This document shows positions 728 through 22,116 of a stretch of DNA of 22,516 nucleotides, piece by piece. Position 1 is the stretch's first letter, and each line of letters begins with the position of its first letter. The DNA is from a virus, in the IMG/VR virus record IMGVR_UViG_3300047373_000325, positions 1-22,516 of that record. One strand, written 5' to 3'. The translations under genes and the position numbers were made by a program. Below the pieces are notes generated by a model that worked only from the letters and a program-made list of their open reading frames with translations, was not told where the DNA came from and searched no databases.

Positions 728-2058
728 TATTTAACCTTTTTTAATTTTGGTAAATTAACCTTTGGTGTTTCTACTTTCTTTTCAACTTTTTTTAATTTTG
801 GTAATGATAATCCAACCGTTTGAGGTTTACTATCTACATCTTTTAGATGAATATCTAACACTTCAGCCATTTTATCAAATGTAAATCTTTCTTTTGTGTA
901 TTGTCTATGTTTTCTTGATTTTTCTAAATACTTTTTATAGTTTTTATGAATATCTTTCATAGTACCACCTGCAATTGAGTAATCAATTGTAAACCACTCA
1001 GAATCTCTCAACAAAAATTTATCAGCGGCTGATTTATGTACTTTATCCATTTTACCTGTAATACAAGAAATATATTCAGGATTTAAGAAATCCATATGTC
1101 CACTCCATGCTGATACTACCATCGGTTTACCACTAATAGTTGCCTCTAATAAAGGTCTACCAAATCCTTCACCTCTCGTAAATGAAACGTGAGCTTTTAC
1201 CTTTGGGTGATTGTATAATGCATTTACTTCTTTATCTGTTAAATCAGAATGTAGTAAATAAACGTTTGGTAATCTACCTGGTAATTTACTTCTCATATCT
1301 TTAATTATTCTTCGGATACGATGTCTATCAGGTAAAGATGTTCCACCACTACTTGTCTTTAGAATTAGAGCTGGTGCGTTCTTTTTGTTAGTAAATGCTT
1401 GTAAGAATGTCCAAATCAATCCACTAATGTTTTTTCTATCATGTTCAAAATCACCCTTCAACCAATGTCCTACAAATAAGAAACAAAATGATTCATCAAT
1501 CTTAGATAATGTATCATTTATTCTTGGTTCAGATGGTGCTTTGTTATCATAAATCTTAGTATCATATCCTTCGAATAATACATCAATTTGTTTTTCACAT
1601 TTTAAAGTTCCAAGTGTCTTTCCACTTTTTTCATCTTTTTTATCAAAGACTGTATTTTCAGCACATTGTTTTGAAAAGTTAGATGAAACTAATACTTTAT
1701 CCATACGATTAATACCCTCTAAACAATGAGCTGGCATTACAGTTGTTTCAACACCTGCAGTTACACCTATATTATAATCACCTACAGGTTGAAATTCATT
1801 AGGAACTGTAATCTGAATCCAAACATTTGGTTTTGATGGTTTCTGTTCTGGTATATAGATTCTGTTTAATAAATCATCATCCTTACCTACTTTAAGTGCA
1901 TCCATTGGTGTATTACCCCATCTCTGAGATAAGATTTTAATATCCCAATCAGGTCTTACTTTTATTAGAGCTCTTACGAAATCTCTACTTCTTGAACCAT
2001 ATCCACTTCTTGTAGATATAGGACAACTAATTACACATACTTTTTTTATACTTTCCAT
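727..2058 (-). CDS. GT-B fold glycosyltransferase, family 4-like (443 aa)
   Basis: The N-terminal Rossmann domain opens with VCVISCPISTRSGYGSRSRDF, the usual glycine-rich acceptor-domain start of GT4 enzymes. The C-terminal domain has LFVGHWLKGDFEHDRKN (about 195-210) and the E-x7-E donor-binding motif EGFGRPLLE with E297 and E305, followed by SGKPMVVSAWSGHMDF. It therefore probably transfers a sugar from a nucleotide-sugar with retention of configuration. Length fits the family. The C-terminus is unusual: LPKLKKV occurs twice (419-425 and 436-442) in a basic extension after the catalytic domain. The start codon lies 13 bases inside the 3' end of the upstream GT4 gene, and no nearer in-frame ATG gives a complete first beta-strand. 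Acceptor is unknown; phage DNA bases or virion proteins are both plausible. Confidence 0.85.
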   Translation of the reverse strand: MESIKKVCVISCPISTRSGYGSRSRDFVRALIKVRPDWDIKILSQRWGNTPMDALKVGKDDDLLNRIYIPEQKPSKPNVWIQITVPNEFQPVGDYNIGVTAGVETTVMPAHCLEGINRMDKVLVSSNFSKQCAENTVFDKKDEKSGKTLGTLKCEKQIDVLFEGYDTKIYDNKAPSEPRINDTLSKIDESFCFLFVGHWLKGDFEHDRKNISGLIWTFLQAFTNKKNAPALILKTSSGGTSLPDRHRIRRIIKDMRSKLPGRLPNVYLLHSDLTDKEVNALYNHPKVKAHVSFTRGEGFGRPLLEATISGKPMVVSAWSGHMDFLNPEYISCITGKMDKVHKSAADKFLLRDSEWFTIDYSIAGGTMKDIHKNYKKYLEKSRKHRQYTKERFTFDKMAEVLDIHLKDVDSKPQTVGLSLPKLKKVEKKVETPKVNLPKLKKVK

Positions 2059-3446
2059 AATACTAATTCTGTTTTAGGTTTCCAATTTTTAAATGTAGTA
2101 TCGATTGCCTCAATATATCTCTCACCCATATTCTTAGCACTCATACCAGCTTCCTTTGATTTCATCCACTCTGAACCTTCCAATCCACATTCTACTCGTC
2201 TATCTGTTTTGGTATCATACCATTGTCTAAGTGCTTTTGCAACATCTTCATACGAACATCTGTCATCAAAGATATATGGTGTCGGTGGTGAGCCTTGTAG
2301 GGAACGATTTGATGGCCATACAGGGATTACCCAACTACCCCAACTTAAATTTTGTGGTAATCTCTTTTTATCATGTAGTGAACCTAATTCAACATAATCA
2401 TCTTCAGTAATGTACTTACCATCGATAGTAAAGTTACATTGGTCTTGTAACCCACCTGTAACGTTAACAATGATTGGTGTTCCTGCATTTACAGATTCAC
2501 AACTTGCCAATCCAAACCCTTCATTAGATGCAATATTAAGATTAACATCACACATATTATATAATACATTTAAATCATCTGTACTAAACTGAGAATTGGT
2601 AAACATTACATCATAATCAGGACAAATATTTTCAATTACTTCTAAAAGATTTGTTCCATTTTCATCTGATACTTGTGTATGTAATAACAATAAACAATTA
2701 TCTGATTGTTCTTTTGGTAGTCCATCACAAAACTCTTTATAAGCTAAGATTAAATCACCAGGACTTTTTCTTCTAATGTTACGATTATTCCATAGAGCGA
2801 TAAAATCTTTATTTTCAGGAATATCTAACTTACGTCTCATTTCTTCAACTAATTCTTTACCATCAGGAAGATGTTTAATTGGTTTGAACTTTTCAGATAC
2901 TCCATGTGGTATGTATTTCATTTGCCAATCTTCATAATGTTCACCATACTTTTTCATAACCCTACGATTAATACCGTATGTTTGTTTTGAAATACTCATA
3001 AGTAAATCACAACTTCCATAGAACGGAGCGTTCCACATTGGGTCTGGTAAATCATCCCATATGTTTAGATACATAATTGGAACGTGTTTACGAATCTCAT
3101 CTTCCATATTATATAACCAACCCCAAAAACGTGGGTCTGTAAAGTGTAGGATTGCATCCACAGGCTCATTAATTAGAATCTGTCTAATTAAATCAGGATT
3201 ACCATAACCACTTGATGGTATGATTCTAACTGATGCATCAGAGATACCTCTCTCTGCATTTACATCATCAGATACATCGAAAAACTTACCCTCATCAGGA
3301 TGTTTCACCGCTGCTCCAACTTGTAACCAATCATATTTATGTGCTGTATGGAGAACCATCTCCTTTGACATTGTGGCGATACCACTATGTAATCTTAAAT
3401 CATCTGATAATAGAAGTATCAGAGGTTTTTTCTTTTTATCACTCAT
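2046..3446 (-). CDS. GT-B fold glycosyltransferase, family 4-like (466 aa)
   Basis: The first domain starts ILLLSDDLRLHSGIATMSKE, a GT-B acceptor-domain signature. The second domain contains ALWNNRNIRRKSPGDLILAY (about 217-236), the strand and basic stretch that bind donor phosphate, and the E-x7-E motif EGFGLASCE with E309 and E317, followed by AGTPIIVNVTGGLQDQ. It is related to, but well diverged from, the next gene downstream, with which it overlaps by 13 bases; the pair look like sequentially acting or alternative sugar transferases. It starts 33 bases after the SLOG-like gene. The reaction class is well supported; donor and acceptor are not visible from sequence. No signal peptide, so it acts in the cytoplasm. 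Confidence 0.87.
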   Translation of the reverse strand: MSDKKKKPLILLLSDDLRLHSGIATMSKEMVLHTAHKYDWLQVGAAVKHPDEGKFFDVSDDVNAERGISDASVRIIPSSGYGNPDLIRQILINEPVDAILHFTDPRFWGWLYNMEDEIRKHVPIMYLNIWDDLPDPMWNAPFYGSCDLLMSISKQTYGINRRVMKKYGEHYEDWQMKYIPHGVSEKFKPIKHLPDGKELVEEMRRKLDIPENKDFIALWNNRNIRRKSPGDLILAYKEFCDGLPKEQSDNCLLLLHTQVSDENGTNLLEVIENICPDYDVMFTNSQFSTDDLNVLYNMCDVNLNIASNEGFGLASCESVNAGTPIIVNVTGGLQDQCNFTIDGKYITEDDYVELGSLHDKKRLPQNLSWGSWVIPVWPSNRSLQGSPPTPYIFDDRCSYEDVAKALRQWYDTKTDRRVECGLEGSEWMKSKEAGMSAKNMGERYIEAIDTTFKNWKPKTELVLWKV

Positions 3447-5322: not shown

Positions 5323-5354
5323 CTAATATACGAAAATTATTTGAAACTACCAAA
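5323..5354 (-). promoter_or_regulatory. Phage promoter, TTGG-N18-GTATATTrG type (upstream of RecB-like nuclease)
   Basis: On the minus strand TTTGG (5354-5350) is followed by 18 bases and GTATATTAG (5331-5323). It is one of five copies in the window with identical 18-base spacing, all just upstream of a gene with none of the copies inside a gene body. It resembles the Bacteroidota -33/-7 promoter (TTTG and TAnnTTTG). The upstream flank AATTTGGTAGTT is shared with the copy near the helicase gene. The last G is only four bases from the ATG at 5318. Confidence 0.75.
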
Positions 5355-5381: not shown

Positions 5382-5792
5382 TTACTTAGCCCATTTCTTT
5401 CTTTGAACTATCTGAGAGATAATTCCATATACTGATAAATCCTCATAGGTATCTTGTATATTCTCACCAACCTCATCAGGTTGTCCTAATACAACCAATT
5501 GCTTTAATCGTTGTATTTTATCATTCTTTCTAAACCACAATCCAACTAAAGATAATTTAATATCTTCATCAGATTCTAAGTTAGTTCCAACAGAGATGTT
5601 ACCTGGCCCATAGTTTCTTTGTTTTTTACAAAATGTTTCATACATTTCATCCAAAATCTTTTGAAACTCTTTTGTGGTTTCAGGATATAATCTTTCACAA
5701 TACTGAATTGCAGTTTCTTCTTTTTCTTCTTTCAAAGTTCGTTCACCTCTGTGAACTACTTTTGTTTTTGCCTCTCTTAGTATCTCTGCCAT
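5382..5792 (-). CDS. DUF1599 / nucleotide modification associated domain 1 (NMAD1) protein (136 aa)
   Basis: After a charged N-terminal helix, the conserved core is seen as KKQRNYGPGNISVG (56-69), GLWFRKNDKIQRLKQL (84-99) and ENIQDTYEDLSVYGIISQ (110-127), ending in a basic RKKWAK. The YGP-N, R-x2-DK and D-x3-DL-x-Y residues are the family signature. The family is named for its recurrent association with phage base-modification genes; an exact reaction is not established, and the all-helical, acidic-residue pattern suggests a nucleotide-handling enzyme or binder. It starts with a one-base overlap (TAATG) with the 99-codon gene, and it is the last gene of the replisome unit. Here its presence fits with the methyltransferase-, PLP- and glycosyltransferase-like genes. 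Confidence 0.8.
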   Translation of the reverse strand: MAEILREAKTKVVHRGERTLKEEKEETAIQYCERLYPETTKEFQKILDEMYETFCKKQRNYGPGNISVGTNLESDEDIKLSLVGLWFRKNDKIQRLKQLVVLGQPDEVGENIQDTYEDLSVYGIISQIVQRKKWAK

Positions 5793-7905: not shown

Positions 7906-9537
7906 TTATTTTTTATGAAATACAAATATTGGTTCAAATTTGTATGATTTACCGTCATACTCTACTGCATTTTTAATTCCACTCTTAGATGGGTCTAACC
8001 CAACCATTCGTGTCATTAACATCTTTAGTTTACCTTTATACTCACAACCTAATTCTTCTAAGATATCAATTGAATCTTGTTCTAATGGATAGTAAGTACT
8101 TTCACCTATTTTGATATCAGCAATATTCCATAAGATGTATCTATCATTTTTCATATAATCATAGATTGTAGTTAGAGTTGGTTTGAGAAAATTATCTCTC
8201 CAATCTTCATACTCCCCATATGCCTTAAATGATTGTTTTTCATCTTGTGAATATTGTTCTCTATTAAAGTAAGGTGGTGATGTAAATGATATATCTAACT
8301 TACCTTTGTACTTTTGAAACTCAGGATTGTTTTGAATCAACTCAGAGCCATCTTGGAATACTTCAAAAGTATTTGATTGTGGTTTTACATCAAAGAATGA
8401 TGTAAGTTTATCTGAATAATCATCAACACAATTTTTGTTATAGAAGTTTGCAACATACTCATATCTTGTAATACCTAACTCATCAATGAAATTATCAGGA
8501 TTAGGGTCTGTACCGATATAGTGAGTTTTCTTTCTACTACTCATTGCTCCTATGATTCTACCACCCCAACCTGCAGATGAATCGTAAATATGTAACGGTT
8601 CATCGGTATCGATATGTGATGTGTAGTTTTCATAAATCCACTTCGCAGTTAATGCTGGAAAGTTTACCGCAGGTTGTCCACAACTTAATCTGAATACTTG
8701 TAATATCTTAGGAAAGATACCTGAGTCTTTTTCATACCATCTTATCTGATATGCATAATGTTGTGTTGTACCAGCTTCAGATGTCCAACTATCTGCAATT
8801 TCATCAATATTTGATAATTGAGTATCTGAAAGATAACCATCATCTTTTAATTTCTGTACCTGTTCTGAGTTTAAATAAAGATTCTTACTACCAATATATT
8901 CTTTGTTGAATGTACCGAAGTTTTCAAGAGTTCTTGTGTTTACTTTTGAAATCCAAATAGCTAAATTAGAATACTTACCATTAAATACTTTTCCATCATG
9001 TACATCTTTGATAAAATCAATAGCACCTTGTCCATTCCAAAAAGGATTCTCATCTCGTTTATCAATAACTGAACGTGACCAAGAGTACATTGAATCCCTC
9101 TTAACAGCTCGTTTCATAATTCTAACAAACTTTTCTTCTAACTCTGGGTCTGAGAAATGGTCGTATATAGATAATCCACCATCCGCAGATTTGCCTGTTG
9201 AAATCTTTGTTTTCAACATTGTTGGAAAGAATTGATTTACTACTGATGCATCTTTGTTAAAATTCTTAATAATACCTAATGATAAATCATCCCCACTTAA
9301 ATCCTTTTCCCAATAATCTGCAGGATTAGATTTAAGTTTCTTAAAACTCTTAATGATACCATCCTCATTTCTACCAATCACAGGTGGTGTTCCAAATACA
9401 TCCCACTGCTCAGTAACTTCTTTTCGTAAAGTTCTGGCCCAATCAGTAAACTCACCATCAGTCATTTCTAATAACTGATGATAAGTTGTGTTTGATTGAA
9501 ATTTGGAAAATTGTGACCTTTCGTAAAAATGATTCAT
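7906..9537 (-). CDS. TSPPY-type methyltransferase with a large N-terminal extension (543 aa), DNA amino-methyltransferase-like
   Basis: The SAM-binding motif I is IYDSSAGWGGRIIGA (317-331), followed by YIGTDPN (340-346) and the catalytic motif IV TSPPYF (419-424), then LWNIADIK. Motif I before motif IV at the C-terminal end is the gamma-like order. Enzymes with this core transfer a methyl group from S-adenosylmethionine to an exocyclic amino group of cytosine or adenine. The first 280 residues have no recognisable domain and probably include target recognition. The protein is clearly homologous over its C-terminal half to the enzyme at 13597-14841, so the phage has two paralogues. It is embedded between the clamp and clamp-loader genes, two bases after the clamp stop. 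DNA may not be the actual substrate; the fold is secure and the substrate is inferred. Confidence 0.8.
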   Translation of the reverse strand: MNHFYERSQFSKFQSNTTYHQLLEMTDGEFTDWARTLRKEVTEQWDVFGTPPVIGRNEDGIIKSFKKLKSNPADYWEKDLSGDDLSLGIIKNFNKDASVVNQFFPTMLKTKISTGKSADGGLSIYDHFSDPELEEKFVRIMKRAVKRDSMYSWSRSVIDKRDENPFWNGQGAIDFIKDVHDGKVFNGKYSNLAIWISKVNTRTLENFGTFNKEYIGSKNLYLNSEQVQKLKDDGYLSDTQLSNIDEIADSWTSEAGTTQHYAYQIRWYEKDSGIFPKILQVFRLSCGQPAVNFPALTAKWIYENYTSHIDTDEPLHIYDSSAGWGGRIIGAMSSRKKTHYIGTDPNPDNFIDELGITRYEYVANFYNKNCVDDYSDKLTSFFDVKPQSNTFEVFQDGSELIQNNPEFQKYKGKLDISFTSPPYFNREQYSQDEKQSFKAYGEYEDWRDNFLKPTLTTIYDYMKNDRYILWNIADIKIGESTYYPLEQDSIDILEELGCEYKGKLKMLMTRMVGLDPSKSGIKNAVEYDGKSYKFEPIFVFHKK

Positions 9538-10291: not shown

Positions 10292-10323
10292 CTAATATAC
10301 AAAAAATATATTTAAAATCCAAA
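10292..10323 (-). promoter_or_regulatory. Phage promoter, TTGG-N18-GTATATTrG type (upstream of sliding clamp)
   Basis: TTTGG (10323-10319) then 18 bases then GTATATTAG (10300-10292) on the minus strand. The upstream half lies within the last codons of the polymerase gene (the GF before its stop), so the phage has kept the promoter inside coding sequence. The start codon of the clamp gene is 38 bases further on, giving a normal 5' leader. Confidence 0.75.
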
Positions 10324-12828: not shown

Positions 12829-13010
12829 TAACTATTTTTTATTTCTTTTAACCAACCCCACATAAGGCCATTTGTAATTCTATTTTTAATTGTTTGGTAA
12901 TCGTTAACCTCTAAACAATATTTAAAATCTCTAAGTAAATCTTTTGGTGTTCTCATAACATCATTTGATATGATTTCATAAGTCTTACCCTTAAATGTAA
13001 ATGTTACCAC
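12828..13010 (-). CDS. Small protein of unknown function upstream of the polymerase (up to 60 aa; start uncertain)
   Basis: The longest frame begins with GTG at 13010 (VTFTFKGKTYEI...). A shorter version starts at the only in-frame ATG, at 12956, giving 42 residues beginning MRTPKDLLRDF. The GTG directly abuts the conserved -7 half of the promoter at 13009-13040 (the element's last bases overlap it), so a transcript starting a few bases downstream would lack the GTG. This favours either the ATG at 12956 or a leaderless start not resolved here. The residues that follow (DFKYCLEVNDYQTIKNRI) look like a helix, and the C-terminus is LMWGWLKEIKNS. Stop overlaps the polymerase start by one base. 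No family is recognised; the coupling to the polymerase is the only clue. Confidence 0.6.
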   Translation of the reverse strand: MVTFTFKGKTYEIISNDVMRTPKDLLRDFKYCLEVNDYQTIKNRITNGLMWGWLKEIKNS

Positions 13011-13040
13011 AATATACGAATTATTTTTTATATATCCAAA
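13009..13040 (-). promoter_or_regulatory. Phage promoter, TTGG-N18-GTATATTrG type (upstream of the 60-codon ORF and polymerase)
   Basis: TTTGG (13040-13036), 18 bases, then GTATATTG (13017-13010) on the minus strand. It differs from the other four only in the final base (T instead of G after TATATTG). It begins 10 bases after the terminator stem 13051-13080, so the end of the outer-membrane-protein unit and the start of the polymerase unit abut. Confidence 0.7.
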
Positions 13041-13102: not shown

Positions 13103-13516
13103 TTAGAATTTTAAACCAACTCCTAATTGAAGGTTTGTTGTTTTTAATGCTGAATCATAAACTACTTTTGGGTCAACGAATACACTCTTGTGGAATGTAA
13201 ACATTTTACCAACTCCTAATTTAAGAGCATCAGTTTCAAAACCTTCAGTAGCAGCATACGCAAAGAATCCTTTAAAAAAGTATCTTGCGTGAACATCAAT
13301 ACTTAAGTCCTCAGTTGAATCTGCTTGTGATACATCAACACCTACCATTAGGTTATCTGTAAACGCATATCCAACAGTTGGAGCTACAGCCCAATCAGTC
13401 CATGCTACATTTGCAATGTCACCAGTACCAATGTACCAATCACCTTTTGCATTTTGAGCGTTCATTGAAATAATCATTCCAATTACTAGCGTTAAAGTTA
13501 ATAATAATTTTCTCAT
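13103..13516 (-). CDS. Outer-membrane beta-barrel protein with Bacteroidota-type signal peptide (137 aa)
   Basis: Residues 1-21 (MRKLLLTLTLVIGMIISMNAQ) are a classical Sec signal peptide with cleavage predicted after NAQ, the ending seen in many Flavobacteriia exported proteins. The mature part is made of alternating hydrophobic strands (WYIGTGD, VAPTVGYAFTDNLMVGVDVS, LSIDVHARYFFKGFFAYAAT, LKLGVGKMFTF, FVDPKVVYDS, LQLGVGLKF) with turns between, and ends in phenylalanine as BAM-inserted barrels do. It probably forms a small porin-like barrel in the host outer membrane. It has its own leader, an upstream inverted repeat and its own terminator, and it interrupts the phage gene chain. It looks like a host-derived moron. 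Function such as receptor masking or superinfection exclusion is inference. Confidence 0.85.
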   Translation of the reverse strand: MRKLLLTLTLVIGMIISMNAQNAKGDWYIGTGDIANVAWTDWAVAPTVGYAFTDNLMVGVDVSQADSTEDLSIDVHARYFFKGFFAYAATEGFETDALKLGVGKMFTFHKSVFVDPKVVYDSALKTTNLQLGVGLKF

Positions 13517-13596: not shown

Positions 13597-14841
13597 TTAC
13601 TTTTTCCAAATCCATATTGGTTCACAAAAAGTTTTACCTACATTTTCATCGTGTTTTCTTAGTTCTTCTTCGGTGTATCTATCCCTATCACCTTCTATCA
13701 CTAGACCAGCTCCTACAGAACCAGGTCGTTTAGCCATTTCCATACCCAAACACCCCTCATAAGTACCGCCGAGTGACTGAATAAAGTCGTTCATTGGATT
13801 AGTAATTTCTAAATACCGTCTCTCGCCACCTGATGAACCATATACATCTGCAATATTTATTGCCATATAACCACCCTTTTTAACCGATGGCCATATTCTT
13901 TCTAAAGTTGCGTGTAAGAAGTTCTTATTCCATTCATCGATTGTTTTATATCTAATCCAACTCTGAGTATCATCATATGAATATCTTTCTACTGAGAAAT
14001 ACGGTGGTGATGTGAATACCATATCAAAATGATTCTCATATGGAGTAAAATCAAAATCCTCAGCAGGTGTACAATGGAACTCCCACTTTTTATCTTCTTC
14101 AAAGAATCCTAAGTGTTTGTTATAGAACTCACCTTGCATTTGATATAATGGATGATTCTCTTTACGTGGGTCTAACCCAACATAATGTTTAGTGTTTGAT
14201 GCACCCATAAATCCAGCGAATCTATCACCCCAACCTGCACTAAAATCTAATACGTTTTCAGATTCCATCATTTCATAGAACACTTTTGCTACATTCGGTT
14301 TGAATGCCGAACATATATACTTTCTCAAACTTAAACAAACTCTTAATTCGTTTCTTGTTACCTTTGGAAACTTTAGAGTATATAATCCACCCATAAGTGT
14401 TACCATAAACTTTCTCGTTTCCCAAGTTCTCTTTGGACCAGGTGATACCGTTCCATCAACACCCCATCGATTTTCTTGTTGGAAGTAGTTTGATGCGTTA
14501 TTACCTGAGTTCAATCTACGAATATATTGTGGTTTACCTCTGAATGTTAGTGGATACGTTGATTCACTTGCCTTTCTTTGAAACCACTCATTTTCTCTAA
14601 GTAATTCATTCCAACGGATTCCTTTTAACTTCATAAAATCCTTATATGCATCCAACTCAGATATTTCTGCAGTTGGTAGTTCATAATCCATAAGAATATC
14701 CGCCAAACATTCCTTTACTTCATCCTTCGGAAATGTTTCTTTTATATAAGTCCATTGTTCTTCGTTAATTTCGAAGTATGGCTCCATATCTTTAAATTGT
14801 TCTAAGTAATCCTTAGTTGTTACTTTCATAAGTGTGTCCAT
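13597..14841 (-). CDS. TSPPY-type methyltransferase, DNA amino-methyltransferase-like (414 aa; 410 aa from alternative start)
   Basis: Motif I is VLDFSAGWGDRFAGF (197-211), then YVGLDPRK (220-227), and motif IV is TSPPYF (277-282), followed by YMAINIADV. It shares this core and the preceding helix (FKPNVAKVFYE, compare FPALTAKWIYE) with the protein at 7906-9537, so the two are paralogues. Predicted reaction is SAM-dependent methylation of an amino group in a base, with the N-terminal 170 residues probably giving target specificity. Two starts are possible: ATG at 14841, which overlaps the HTH gene by 16 bases, or ATG at 14829, which makes an ATGA overlap typical of this genome. I think the second likely, but the longer is given. 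No matching restriction enzyme gene is seen nearby, though a GIY-YIG protein is in the same unit. Confidence 0.8.
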   Translation of the reverse strand: MDTLMKVTTKDYLEQFKDMEPYFEINEEQWTYIKETFPKDEVKECLADILMDYELPTAEISELDAYKDFMKLKGIRWNELLRENEWFQRKASESTYPLTFRGKPQYIRRLNSGNNASNYFQQENRWGVDGTVSPGPKRTWETRKFMVTLMGGLYTLKFPKVTRNELRVCLSLRKYICSAFKPNVAKVFYEMMESENVLDFSAGWGDRFAGFMGASNTKHYVGLDPRKENHPLYQMQGEFYNKHLGFFEEDKKWEFHCTPAEDFDFTPYENHFDMVFTSPPYFSVERYSYDDTQSWIRYKTIDEWNKNFLHATLERIWPSVKKGGYMAINIADVYGSSGGERRYLEITNPMNDFIQSLGGTYEGCLGMEMAKRPGSVGAGLVIEGDRDRYTEEELRKHDENVGKTFCEPIWIWKK

Positions 14842-15029
14842 GTTCTATTATTTACTATTTCTTCTATGTTCCATTTACTAACTTTATAGTTTCTTGCGAT
14901 TACAGAAGTAGAGAATCCCTTTGAATAGAGTTCTCTTATCTGTAGTACATCTTGGTTAGTTAGTTTTGCTTTTGGGTGATTCTCACCTCTTAACCGATTA
15001 CTAAAGAAAAAATGTTTCTTTACTTTCAT
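14826..15029 (-). CDS. Small HTH DNA-binding protein, like the C-terminal domain of HNH homing endonucleases (67 aa)
   Basis: After a basic start (MKVKKHFFFSNRLRGENHP), the segment KAKLTNQDVLQIRELYSKGF (20-39) and the following STSVIARNYKVSKWNIEEI match the resolvase-like helix-turn-helix found at the C-terminal end of many phage HNH endonucleases (xAKLTxxDVxxIRxLYxxGxS...A..FxVS...I..I). There is no HNH motif here, so it is either a free-standing DNA-binding protein or the remnant of a homing endonuclease. One-base overlap with the upstream GIY-YIG gene and overlap with the methyltransferase place it in that transcription unit. Target is unknown. Confidence 0.78.
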   Translation of the reverse strand: MKVKKHFFFSNRLRGENHPKAKLTNQDVLQIRELYSKGFSTSVIARNYKVSKWNIEEIVNNRTWTHL

Positions 15030-16471
15030 TATGCTACTTTTAGTTCTTTGGATAATAAACTTTTTAATCTTGCACCCTTCATATATAAAGGAAGTTCTTC
15101 AAACTCAATATTAGGTGTAATCATCTTACCCTTCATTTTATCTTTAAATTCATCATCTATGTTAACATCATTAAAAAACTCTTTGTGATTTAATACACCA
15201 TTTTTAAGAGTTTTAAAACTTTCAATTTGAGCTCTACTAGAATGATGTACAAACACATATATTTCATTGTATAACTCCAAACCATCATCAAATCTCTCTT
15301 TTTGTCTGTTAATATATTCATTAAGAATTCTATGTAAACTTGGAGTACCAGATGCCATATCAATAATCAATCTTTTATCCTTTGTTCTTTCTTTTATTTT
15401 TTTAGATAACAGAGCAGTTCCTTCAGGTGTACTGTAGTTAACTCTAACCAACCCTTTACTGTTTTGTTTTTTTTCTTCTTTATGGTCTGTAATCTTTTTA
15501 ATAATCCAATTTATTTTTTTACCAATACCCATAAGTCTCCACCTTGCAAAATCATCTTCGGTACAATAAGAATTACCATCTTCATAGGCATCAATTGCTT
15601 CTTTAAGAGCATCCCACTCATCATATGTTTTACCTATTACTTGTGTTTTTACATTCATATTATTAGCAACAGCTCTCCAATCAGCATCAGTATAATTTTT
15701 ATGTATATCTTCAGGTATTACAATATACTCTGTTGATTCAAATTGATAATGTTCTTTCATAGATACTGGTGTGTAAATTGTATGATTACCACTTATAAGA
15801 AGATATGGATAAAATACTCCTTCAAACATTCTATTTTGAAGATAAATTGGATAATCAACATCCCCATAATTATAAGTAATAGCATCTTTAATATCCTCTA
15901 CATTATCACTATTAATTTGCTCATCTCTAATTTGAACTAAATCATATTCATTATACAGGTCTAAAAAAGTTTTGGGTTCTTGAATACATTCTTTAGATAG
16001 AATTTTTACTTTAGCATTTACTTTACCTTTTCTAAGTAAAAATAATTCTTTAGTAACTTGATTTTGAAATTCTTTATTTTTCTTCTTAACACCAGGCTTC
16101 CCATTCCACTTATTATAGTAAAGTGGGTTATTTGCCGCATCTACTGATTCTAAAAGATTATTTTCAATATCTTCACATTCTTCAAACGAACCCCAATCTA
16201 ATATTTCAAACTTAAATTGAGCTCCTCTTTCAGCTTTATCTTTTAAAAAATCTTCATCCTTACTTGATGTATGATATGGTTTATGTGATTCTAAGTGAAT
16301 TCCTATATAAATTCTACCATTTTTTAGATTTGTATATTTGTAAACAGTTGCAACCATTCCAAATGGTTTTTCAAAATTTGTATCATCTATAACGGAGATG
16401 TACTTTGGTCTTGTATTTTCATTTTTAACAGCCTTCAACCAATCCAATAATTTTAGTTCTGATATTTTCAT
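15029..16471 (-). CDS. GIY-YIG nuclease domain fused to a ParB/SerK-like domain (480 aa)
   Basis: Residues 43-57 (VYKYTNLKNGRIYIG) form a GIY-YIG core, with YHTSSKD at 66-72 and EDIENNLLESVDAA then YYN (118-120), giving the Glu and Asn expected in the active site. A second domain at about 178-260 has the strand pattern and motif LLISGNHTIYT (224-234) followed by YIVIPEDI, which resembles the ParB N-terminal fold, where the usual motif is DGxHR; the arginine is replaced here. The C-terminal part (about 350-480) includes ASGTPSLHRILNEY and has no assigned family. The gene is visibly more AT-rich than its neighbours: the 60-base blocks from 15841 to 16080 contain only 16, 15, 14 and 11 G+C. This suggests later acquisition. 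Nuclease activity plausible; function unknown. Confidence 0.75.
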   Translation of the reverse strand: MKISELKLLDWLKAVKNENTRPKYISVIDDTNFEKPFGMVATVYKYTNLKNGRIYIGIHLESHKPYHTSSKDEDFLKDKAERGAQFKFEILDWGSFEECEDIENNLLESVDAANNPLYYNKWNGKPGVKKKNKEFQNQVTKELFLLRKGKVNAKVKILSKECIQEPKTFLDLYNEYDLVQIRDEQINSDNVEDIKDAITYNYGDVDYPIYLQNRMFEGVFYPYLLISGNHTIYTPVSMKEHYQFESTEYIVIPEDIHKNYTDADWRAVANNMNVKTQVIGKTYDEWDALKEAIDAYEDGNSYCTEDDFARWRLMGIGKKINWIIKKITDHKEEKKQNSKGLVRVNYSTPEGTALLSKKIKERTKDKRLIIDMASGTPSLHRILNEYINRQKERFDDGLELYNEIYVFVHHSSRAQIESFKTLKNGVLNHKEFFNDVNIDDEFKDKMKGKMITPNIEFEELPLYMKGARLKSLLSKELKVA

Positions 16472-16488
16472 ATTTTAATTATTAATTA

Positions 16489-17262
16489 TTATTTTCCTAC
16501 GTTCCAAAATAATGCACCTTCTGATGCGTGTTCTTTCATCCAAGTCCATGCTTTACTATCGTAGGTTAGTGAAGATGGAAATGGTGGTCGTTCTGATTCT
16601 TTACAATCTTGATGAAATTTATATTTCGATAAGAATGTTTCAGCCCTACCTCTTTCTCTATCTGTTGTATTGTGTCCGATTCGTACACCATAAACTTTAG
16701 CATCTGGCCAAGCTTTCTGTAGCCCTCTACTCAATACACCACTACTCATCACAGTCCAAACCTCTTTTGGTGGTTCTATATCAAGTGATAAAGCAGCATT
16801 TTTCATAGATTCAATAATGATAGGATGGTCACCACCAAATGGTACTAACTGGCACCCATCATTTGTTTCTACATATTTTCTGGCCTTAGCCTGTATGTTT
16901 GTAAGGAATCCCATCGGAACTTCGATGATATTACATCCCAATCTAATAGATTCTTCTGTTAACCAAGTATGTTTACCTTGCGGTACGGTTACTGTTGATT
17001 TTAATCCTAAATCGTTACAAGCATATGTTAAAGATAATTGTGCATATCCTTGTCTTGGTGATGCATAAACAAGTTCAGTTACATTTGGATTTGTTTGTTT
17101 AACCCATTGAACATAATCAGTAAACGCTCTACGTTTAGTTCCACCATCCAACAAATCATCTCTTACCACCGTAAACCCATCATATTCCATAATGGTTGGT
17201 TTTGGTAGCTGAATATCATGCTGGATATCGTTATATCCGTAATCTAAGAATTGTTTCTGCAT
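16489..17262 (-). CDS. Fold-type II PLP-dependent enzyme, ACC deaminase/D-cysteine desulfhydrase-like (257 aa)
   Basis: The segment VVRDDLLDGGTKRRAFTDY (32-50) corresponds to the RDD...GGNKxRKL region of the ACC deaminase family, with Lys43 as the predicted Schiff-base lysine. VYASPRQGYAQLSLTYACND (65-84) matches the substrate-facing loop and helix that follow. SSGVLSRGLQ (about 173-182) takes the place of the glycine-rich phosphate-binding loop. Members catalyse beta-elimination, deamination or beta-replacement on amino acids; the exact reaction is not visible. The protein is shorter than bacterial relatives (about 330 residues) and lacks the usual C-terminal extension. It is the first gene of the unit that also encodes the GIY-YIG/ParB-like protein and a methyltransferase, which suggests an anabolic step for DNA modification. 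An amino-acid salvage function is the alternative. Confidence 0.72.
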   Translation of the reverse strand: MQKQFLDYGYNDIQHDIQLPKPTIMEYDGFTVVRDDLLDGGTKRRAFTDYVQWVKQTNPNVTELVYASPRQGYAQLSLTYACNDLGLKSTVTVPQGKHTWLTEESIRLGCNIIEVPMGFLTNIQAKARKYVETNDGCQLVPFGGDHPIIIESMKNAALSLDIEPPKEVWTVMSSGVLSRGLQKAWPDAKVYGVRIGHNTTDRERGRAETFLSKYKFHQDCKESERPPFPSSLTYDSKAWTWMKEHASEGALFWNVGK

Positions 17263-17282: not shown

Positions 17283-17314
17283 CTAATATACAACTTTTTT
17301 TTGAATTATCCAAG
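17283..17314 (-). promoter_or_regulatory. Phage promoter, TTGG-N18-GTATATTrG type (upstream of PLP enzyme)
   Basis: CTTGG (17314-17310), 18 bases, then GTATATTAG (17291-17283) on the minus strand. It starts directly after the thioredoxin stop codon. TACAAT follows, as after the helicase promoter. The ATG at 17262 is 20 bases past the final G, so a short leader is expected. Confidence 0.75.
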
Positions 17315-22084: not shown

Positions 22085-22116
22085 CCAATATACGAATTAT
22101 TATTGTAACTACCAAA
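22085..22116 (-). promoter_or_regulatory. Phage promoter, TTGG-N18-GTATATTrG type (upstream of helicase)
   Basis: TTTGG (22116-22112), 18 bases, then GTATATTGG (22093-22085) on the minus strand. The TTTGG directly follows the stop codon of the exonuclease gene. TACAAT lies between the element and the ATG at 22078. The upstream flank is nearly the same as in the copy at 5323-5354. Confidence 0.75.

Follow-up and report, generated by a model that had tools for sequence, protein, structure and literature searches.

What does a fold-type II PLP enzyme do in a phage operon that also encodes a DNA methyltransferase? The question is raised by a marine phage genome fragment, a virus record of 22,516 bp that was analysed over its whole length (hereafter the window). 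The original prediction proposed that the PLP enzyme, a GIY-YIG/ParB-like protein, an HTH protein and a TSPPY methyltransferase form a base-modification pathway, in which an amino-acid derivative could be made and transferred to DNA.

The window PLP enzyme and its transcription unit

The PLP enzyme (257 aa) is encoded at 16489–17262 on the minus strand and opens the unit; its predicted class is borne out by Pfam, PHROG, an AlphaFold model and alignment. The Pfam PALP profile matched with 34.4 bits (E = 1.9e-8), 0.6 bits below the 35-bit cut-off, and PHROG_7093 (“threonine dehydratase”) matched residues 27–257 with E = 2.7e-30, a significant match across the whole protein that places it in the family of gp52 of Pseudomonas phage M6. 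Foldseek searches with the AlphaFold model (pLDDT 85, pTM 0.84) returned the D-cysteine desulfhydrase 4d9e among the best fold matches (E = 4.7e-11) and an ACC-deaminase homologue (1j0a, TMq 0.79). Lys43, located within RDDLLDGGTKRR, is lysine in 184 of 186 aligned PLP homologues, the other two having gaps, and is the probable Schiff-base lysine, judging from its position and invariance. Similarly, two residues of the phosphate loop SSGVLSRG are nearly invariant (S174 in 185/186 and G175 in 186/186 homologues). The fold, the lysine and the phosphate-binding loop of the fold-type II class are all found in the window protein.

These features are common to D-cysteine desulfhydrase, ACC deaminase and threonine deaminase, whereas the window protein is only 10–19% identical to cellular fold-type II enzymes, is shorter, and carries an altered substrate loop and a phage-specific C-terminus (PPFPS...YDSKAW...FWNV). 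The carboxylate/substrate loop of ordinary fold-type II enzymes is replaced in the phage PLP family by SPRxGYAQ or TPAxGxAQ, as compared with the DCyD and ACCD motifs, and this replacement suggests an unusual substrate. The model also matched a protein of Pithovirus LCDPAC02 (A0A481YNE5) in Foldseek (2.4e-15, 19% identity).

The promoter expected ahead of the PLP gene is supported by a phage-specific motif, TTGG-N18-GTATATTAG, with an exact match at 17283–17313 (minus strand). The motif TTGG-N18-GTATATTRG also occurs at 5323–5353, 10292–10322, 13009–13039 and 22085–22115, all on the minus strand and before genes; its copies sit in intergenic gaps on the coding strand. Allowing up to two mismatches, seven matches were found versus 1.5 expected, and none of 100 shuffles reached seven. 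A plain sigma-70 promoter scan of the window gave a signal not above noise. Downstream of the PLP gene and on its strand, separated by short gaps or overlaps, lie the genes for the GIY-YIG protein (15029–16471), a small HTH protein (14826–15029) and the methyltransferase MT1 (13597–14841), and the next promoter motif is at 13009. The recurrence of the motif above chance plausibly makes these four genes one unit. The HTH protein (67 aa, minus strand) was recovered as predicted, with a weak HTH_7 match (0.0015). A gene related to it overlaps the PLP start in sister phages and adjoins the PLP gene in loci L008–L024.

MT1 (414 aa, minus strand) has the predicted TSPPY motif and a DFSAGWGDR motif, both intact; it matched phrog_12517 with 3.7e-13 and the Pfam family N6_N4_Mtase below cut-off (E = 1.3e-4). 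It is the likely partner of the window PLP enzyme. A second TSPPY methyltransferase, MT2 (543 aa, 7906–9537, minus strand), matched phrog_12517 (1.4e-10) and phrog_498 (1.6e-8). MT1 and MT2 both match these two PHROGs, as do the partner methyltransferases in other phages, and phrog_12517 is the family of methyltransferases that adjoin or contain the PLP domain there. FTSPPYF is present in 80 of 88 window-like methyltransferase frames and SCPPY or TCPPY in all 156 aligned ParB-methyltransferases. S/T-S/C-PPY is a motif of the amino-methyltransferase type, which points to the exocyclic amine of C or A as the likely target; SAM motif I and the D/N/S-PP-Y/F motif IV of m4C/m6A methyltransferases are both present. 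When the methyltransferases were searched with PADLOC for a known defence system, only generic type II methyltransferase and mad2 matches were obtained.

Elsewhere in the window, the second SPPY methyltransferase and the anticipated glycosyltransferases, of which there are two (727–2058 and 2046–3446), were confirmed, while the proposed NMAD1 protein corresponds to an ORF (5382–5792) scoring 20 bits, under the 25-bit cut-off. A short outer-membrane beta-barrel-like protein (OMP_b-brl, weak) is encoded in the phage replication region at 13103–13516 (minus strand).

Linkage of PLP and methyltransferase genes across phages

PLP homologues were collected as 64 close IMG/VR relatives of the window enzyme, 46 relatives of the PLP domain of Erythrobacter phage ZS04 and the best 80 of 155 relatives of the enzyme of Microcystis phage Mae-JY30. 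In the resulting sample, an SPPY methyltransferase was found within the locus of 173 of 196 homologues: at most 600 nt away in 132, fused in 6, within 3 kb in 26 and further away in 9. Many of the other 23 frames are cut close to the PLP gene on one side, and two have a methyltransferase on the other strand; they include M6 and L069, a short piece of the window itself. The locus counts come from related contigs, many of them fragments, and this redundancy was reduced by clustering PLP sequences at 90% identity rather than by a species tree, which left 96 groups (77 methyltransferase-adjacent, 7 within 3 kb, 4 fused and 8 with none). In a position control, hits were observed in 78 of 112 loci, whereas random positions in the same loci averaged 32 hits and never gave more than 48.

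It counts against a close tie that in the window's own clade, where the window is itself a fragment, the nearest methyltransferase is sometimes several kilobases from the PLP gene. In many marine contigs related to the window, an MT2 homologue ends on the PLP start codon, with overlaps of one or a few nucleotides (L020, L028–L041, L043, L045–L048, L064 and L066). Fusions also occur: the 812-aa protein of ZS04 runs from a ParB domain through methyltransferase motif I (LDPFAGGSVRG) and a PLP domain to motif IV (SCPPY), and the same order is seen in R6L, also an Erythrobacter phage, and in Pseudanabaena phage Pam4. In these three proteins the PLP domain follows ...ANRAQ, which comes after motif I, and precedes WHTGDS...SCPPY; Halovirus HCTV-2 and the separate methyltransferase of Mae-JY30 have the two methyltransferase halves joined without interruption.

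No third conserved partner gene was found across three locus groups, in which only the PLP and methyltransferase genes are common to all. HD phosphohydrolase, dUTPase/SAM-lyase and glycosyltransferases were considered for this role, and each proved clade-specific. In L055 (10743–11940) and the other 61%-identity contigs (L049–L068), genes for a dUTPase and for a protein of the S-adenosylmethionine-lyase family come after the PLP gene, with an MT1 homologue behind them. The lyase-family protein of these contigs (PF23780, 41.9 bits) puts a SAM-destroying family beside a SAM-using module.

A search for plasmid carriage of the PLP gene found none, and a search of bacterial genomes returned a single Flavobacteriales MAG contig, which is probably phage. 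The window PLP enzyme is a member of a phage family that is widespread and keeps company with a DNA methyltransferase, into which it is sometimes built, and gene neighbourhoods support a functional tie between the two across unrelated phages. The link to the methyltransferase that the original prediction drew is real and strong, while its companion expectation, that the ParB-like gene would travel with the PLP gene as well, failed: that pairing is confined to a handful of loci.

A candidate two-component modification module

We favour, with modest confidence, the reading that the SPPY methyltransferase works with the PLP enzyme as a two-component DNA-modification module independent of 5-hmdU. 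We infer its chemistry, namely that a hypermodified base results, that the modification is on an amino group, and the order of the steps. The methyltransferase homologue, with SAM motif I and T/S-S/C-P-P-Y, would find the target base and use SAM to alkylate its exocyclic amino group. The PLP enzyme would serve as an optional tailoring enzyme, acting either on the amino-acid moiety of the base so formed or on a SAM-derived donor, and the hypermodified product would block host nucleases.

The optional character of the PLP step is suggested by its distribution. The PLP gene is present in 39 of 79 methyltransferase-anchored loci and scattered over the methyltransferase tree (16 changes versus a shuffled mean of 33), an on/off pattern that may be overstated since some of the loci scored as lacking PLP are short. 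A search for methyltransferase residues diagnostic of PLP presence found none. Such switching on one methyltransferase backbone fits an optional step on the methyltransferase product better than an obligatory donor synthase. In L216 (1027–1647) and four loci resembling it, PLP-less ParB-methyltransferases have their stop overlapped by a 207-aa methylase-like protein, a possible alternative partner.

The same pattern bears on the most serious alternative, that the PLP enzyme is no more than an aid to ordinary DNA methylation and, for example, clears or recycles S-adenosylhomocysteine, homocysteine or a by-product related to them. An optional gene on one backbone, unmarked by any methyltransferase residue, would suit such a role, and the known fold-type II relatives are amino-acid lyases and synthases. 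The PLP-less relatives carry the same motifs, so the methyltransferase product may be plain m4C or m6A, and simple methylation would leave no amino acid for the PLP enzyme, which counts against the tailoring view. We nevertheless hold a supporting role in methylation to be unlikely. Relatives of the fusion protein occur in 316 phage records, and among those listed only a few have the PLP part; ordinary phage methyltransferases thus nearly all do without it. In addition, the distant family member M6 gp52 lies in a hypermodification cassette, and the SPRxGYAQ/TPAxGxAQ loop is unlike that of a free-amino-acid enzyme, as set against the DCyD and ACCD motifs.

Within the favoured two-component module, one specific chemistry can be put forward as speculation, and we would not expect it to prove right in detail. 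SPPY enzymes might move the 3-amino-3-carboxypropyl group from SAM onto the exocyclic amine of either cytosine or adenine, after which the PLP enzyme might decarboxylate or otherwise reshape the DNA-bound amino acid to give an aminopropyl-type base, with two proteins, sometimes one polypeptide, sufficing. This transfer is offered because, with two genes alone, no substrate of the module other than SAM carries an amino acid.

Other routes and known systems

PLP enzymes of the M6-type pathway act as decarboxylases on an amino acid that the base already carries, and we take M6 gp52 to be a decarboxylase. A profile of methyltransferase-linked PLP enzymes finds M6 gp52 at 52 bits, against 23 bits for the best cellular fold-type II enzyme in the PDB with a similar, but different, profile. 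M6 gp52 (phrog_7093) resembles the window protein in fold, lysine and phosphate loop, and the two have a common phage-specific PFP...YD.KAW...FWN end. At ~24% identity, the window protein is, on sequence grounds, a distant relative of M6 gp52, whose gene is inside a phage DNA-modification cluster. A PLP enzyme is listed in the M6-like thymidine-modification cassette of M6/SN1 (PMC9476957), and 5-(2-aminoethyl)deoxyuridine is present in M6 DNA (PMC6449724).

This homology invites the proposal that the window PLP enzyme takes part in thymidine (5-hmdU) hypermodification, with an amino acid put on DNA. However, M6 uses 5-hmdU, kinase and ADDT genes, whereas window-type phages have an SPPY methyltransferase partner instead. 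The searches for 5-hmdU genes covered the long PLP–methyltransferase contigs and the complete phages Mae-JY30, ZS04 and Pam4, the window itself being a fragment. The 5-hmdU DNA kinase HMUDK_hel (PF18723) and the amino acid:DNA transferase ADDT (PF18724) were absent from these contigs and complete phages, and the thymidylate-synthase-type dUMP hydroxymethylase (PF00303 family) was absent from 14 virus records and the three complete PLP phages; M6 was positive for all three. One relative points the other way: in L112 (1994–5862), a PLP homologue has a thymidylate-synthase homologue, a dCMP deaminase and two unknown proteins as neighbours, with no methyltransferase, so the PLP family spans both contexts. 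L112 is a possible link between the two. Its 320-aa neighbour was considered as an ADDT and showed no similarity. The original prediction was right to place the PLP enzyme in phage base modification insofar as the family reaches the M6 cassette, but the thymidine amino-acid-transfer route it invoked was not supported in the contigs and complete phages searched, and we regard that route as improbable for the window.

No less improbable is an auxiliary metabolic gene, an amino-acid lyase unrelated to DNA; the PHROGs annotation as threonine dehydratase would fit it, but the gene is fused into or adjacent to DNA methyltransferases in three clades. More doubtful still is a sulfur route, in which a D-cysteine-desulfhydrase-like enzyme would deliver sulfur for base thiolation or phosphorothioation. 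The best fold matches are D-cysteine desulfhydrases, PAPS-reductase-like genes are present in Mae-JY30 and ZS04 (over cut-off) and in R6L (weak), and a thioredoxin-like gene precedes the PLP gene in the window. However, 15 of the 18 PLP records, Pam4 among them, have no member of the PAPS-reductase family, and the thioredoxin-like gene adjoins ribonucleotide reductase genes, which it probably serves.

The GIY-YIG gene at 15029–16471 (minus strand) is probably mobile and non-essential, having inserted into the slot that follows the PLP gene. Its GIY-YIG assignment stood with a weak match to the homing endonuclease family phrog_314 (E = 5.8e-9). Its ParB-like label, by comparison, was based solely on an SGNHT motif in the uncharacterised C-terminal region and could not be confirmed: profile, PDB sequence and fold searches returned no ParB or SerK match, the model of the middle region of the protein being unreliable (pLDDT ~30–37). 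The gene is beside the PLP gene only in L005, L006, L008, L009, L010 and L027, with a diverged copy in L062, and a relative in L295 has no PLP gene nearby. In L005–L062 the slot is otherwise filled by an ATPase, glycosyltransferases or unknown proteins; this hypervariable slot has the look of a mobile-gene hotspot. In other phages ParB domains are indeed found with the partner methyltransferase, but there they belong to the methyltransferase itself. An SbnI/SerK–SbnA-type pair, in which the neighbour would phosphorylate serine for the PLP enzyme, is scarcely credible for a neighbour that is not conserved, despite the adjacency of the two genes in the window and the SGNHT motif.

To our knowledge, known phage hypermodification routes depend on several genes and begin with a handle, either hydroxymethyl or carboxymethyl. 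The phage ParB-DNA methylase fusions (such as HCTV-2 gp11 and phiFL3A gp36; phrog_498/12517) have the same methyltransferase domain as the PLP module, with motif I and SCPPY, but no PLP domain, and are presumed to perform simple methylation. The CmoA/CmoX/CmoY carboxymethylcytosine system likewise pairs a methyltransferase homologue with a partner enzyme to give a hypermodified base, and ParB-domain proteins are often near it (PMC12783734); no PLP enzyme is mentioned for that system (PMC12783734). CmoX is a C5 enzyme with SPPC, whereas the methyltransferase of the PLP module has SPPY, and the Cx-SAM synthase CmoA (TIGR00740), a candidate donor synthase, was absent from 17 records. Among the papers searched, none describes the PLP–methyltransferase module.

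Collectively, our results suggest that this module, which occurs in marine phages and in phages that infect Erythrobacter, Microcystis and Pseudanabaena, gives phages a little-studied means of decorating their DNA bases that goes further than simple methylation. If so, it would provide a compact two-gene, or even one-gene, new route to charged bases, which would let phages evade restriction and CRISPR nucleases and could be a useful DNA-labelling tool.
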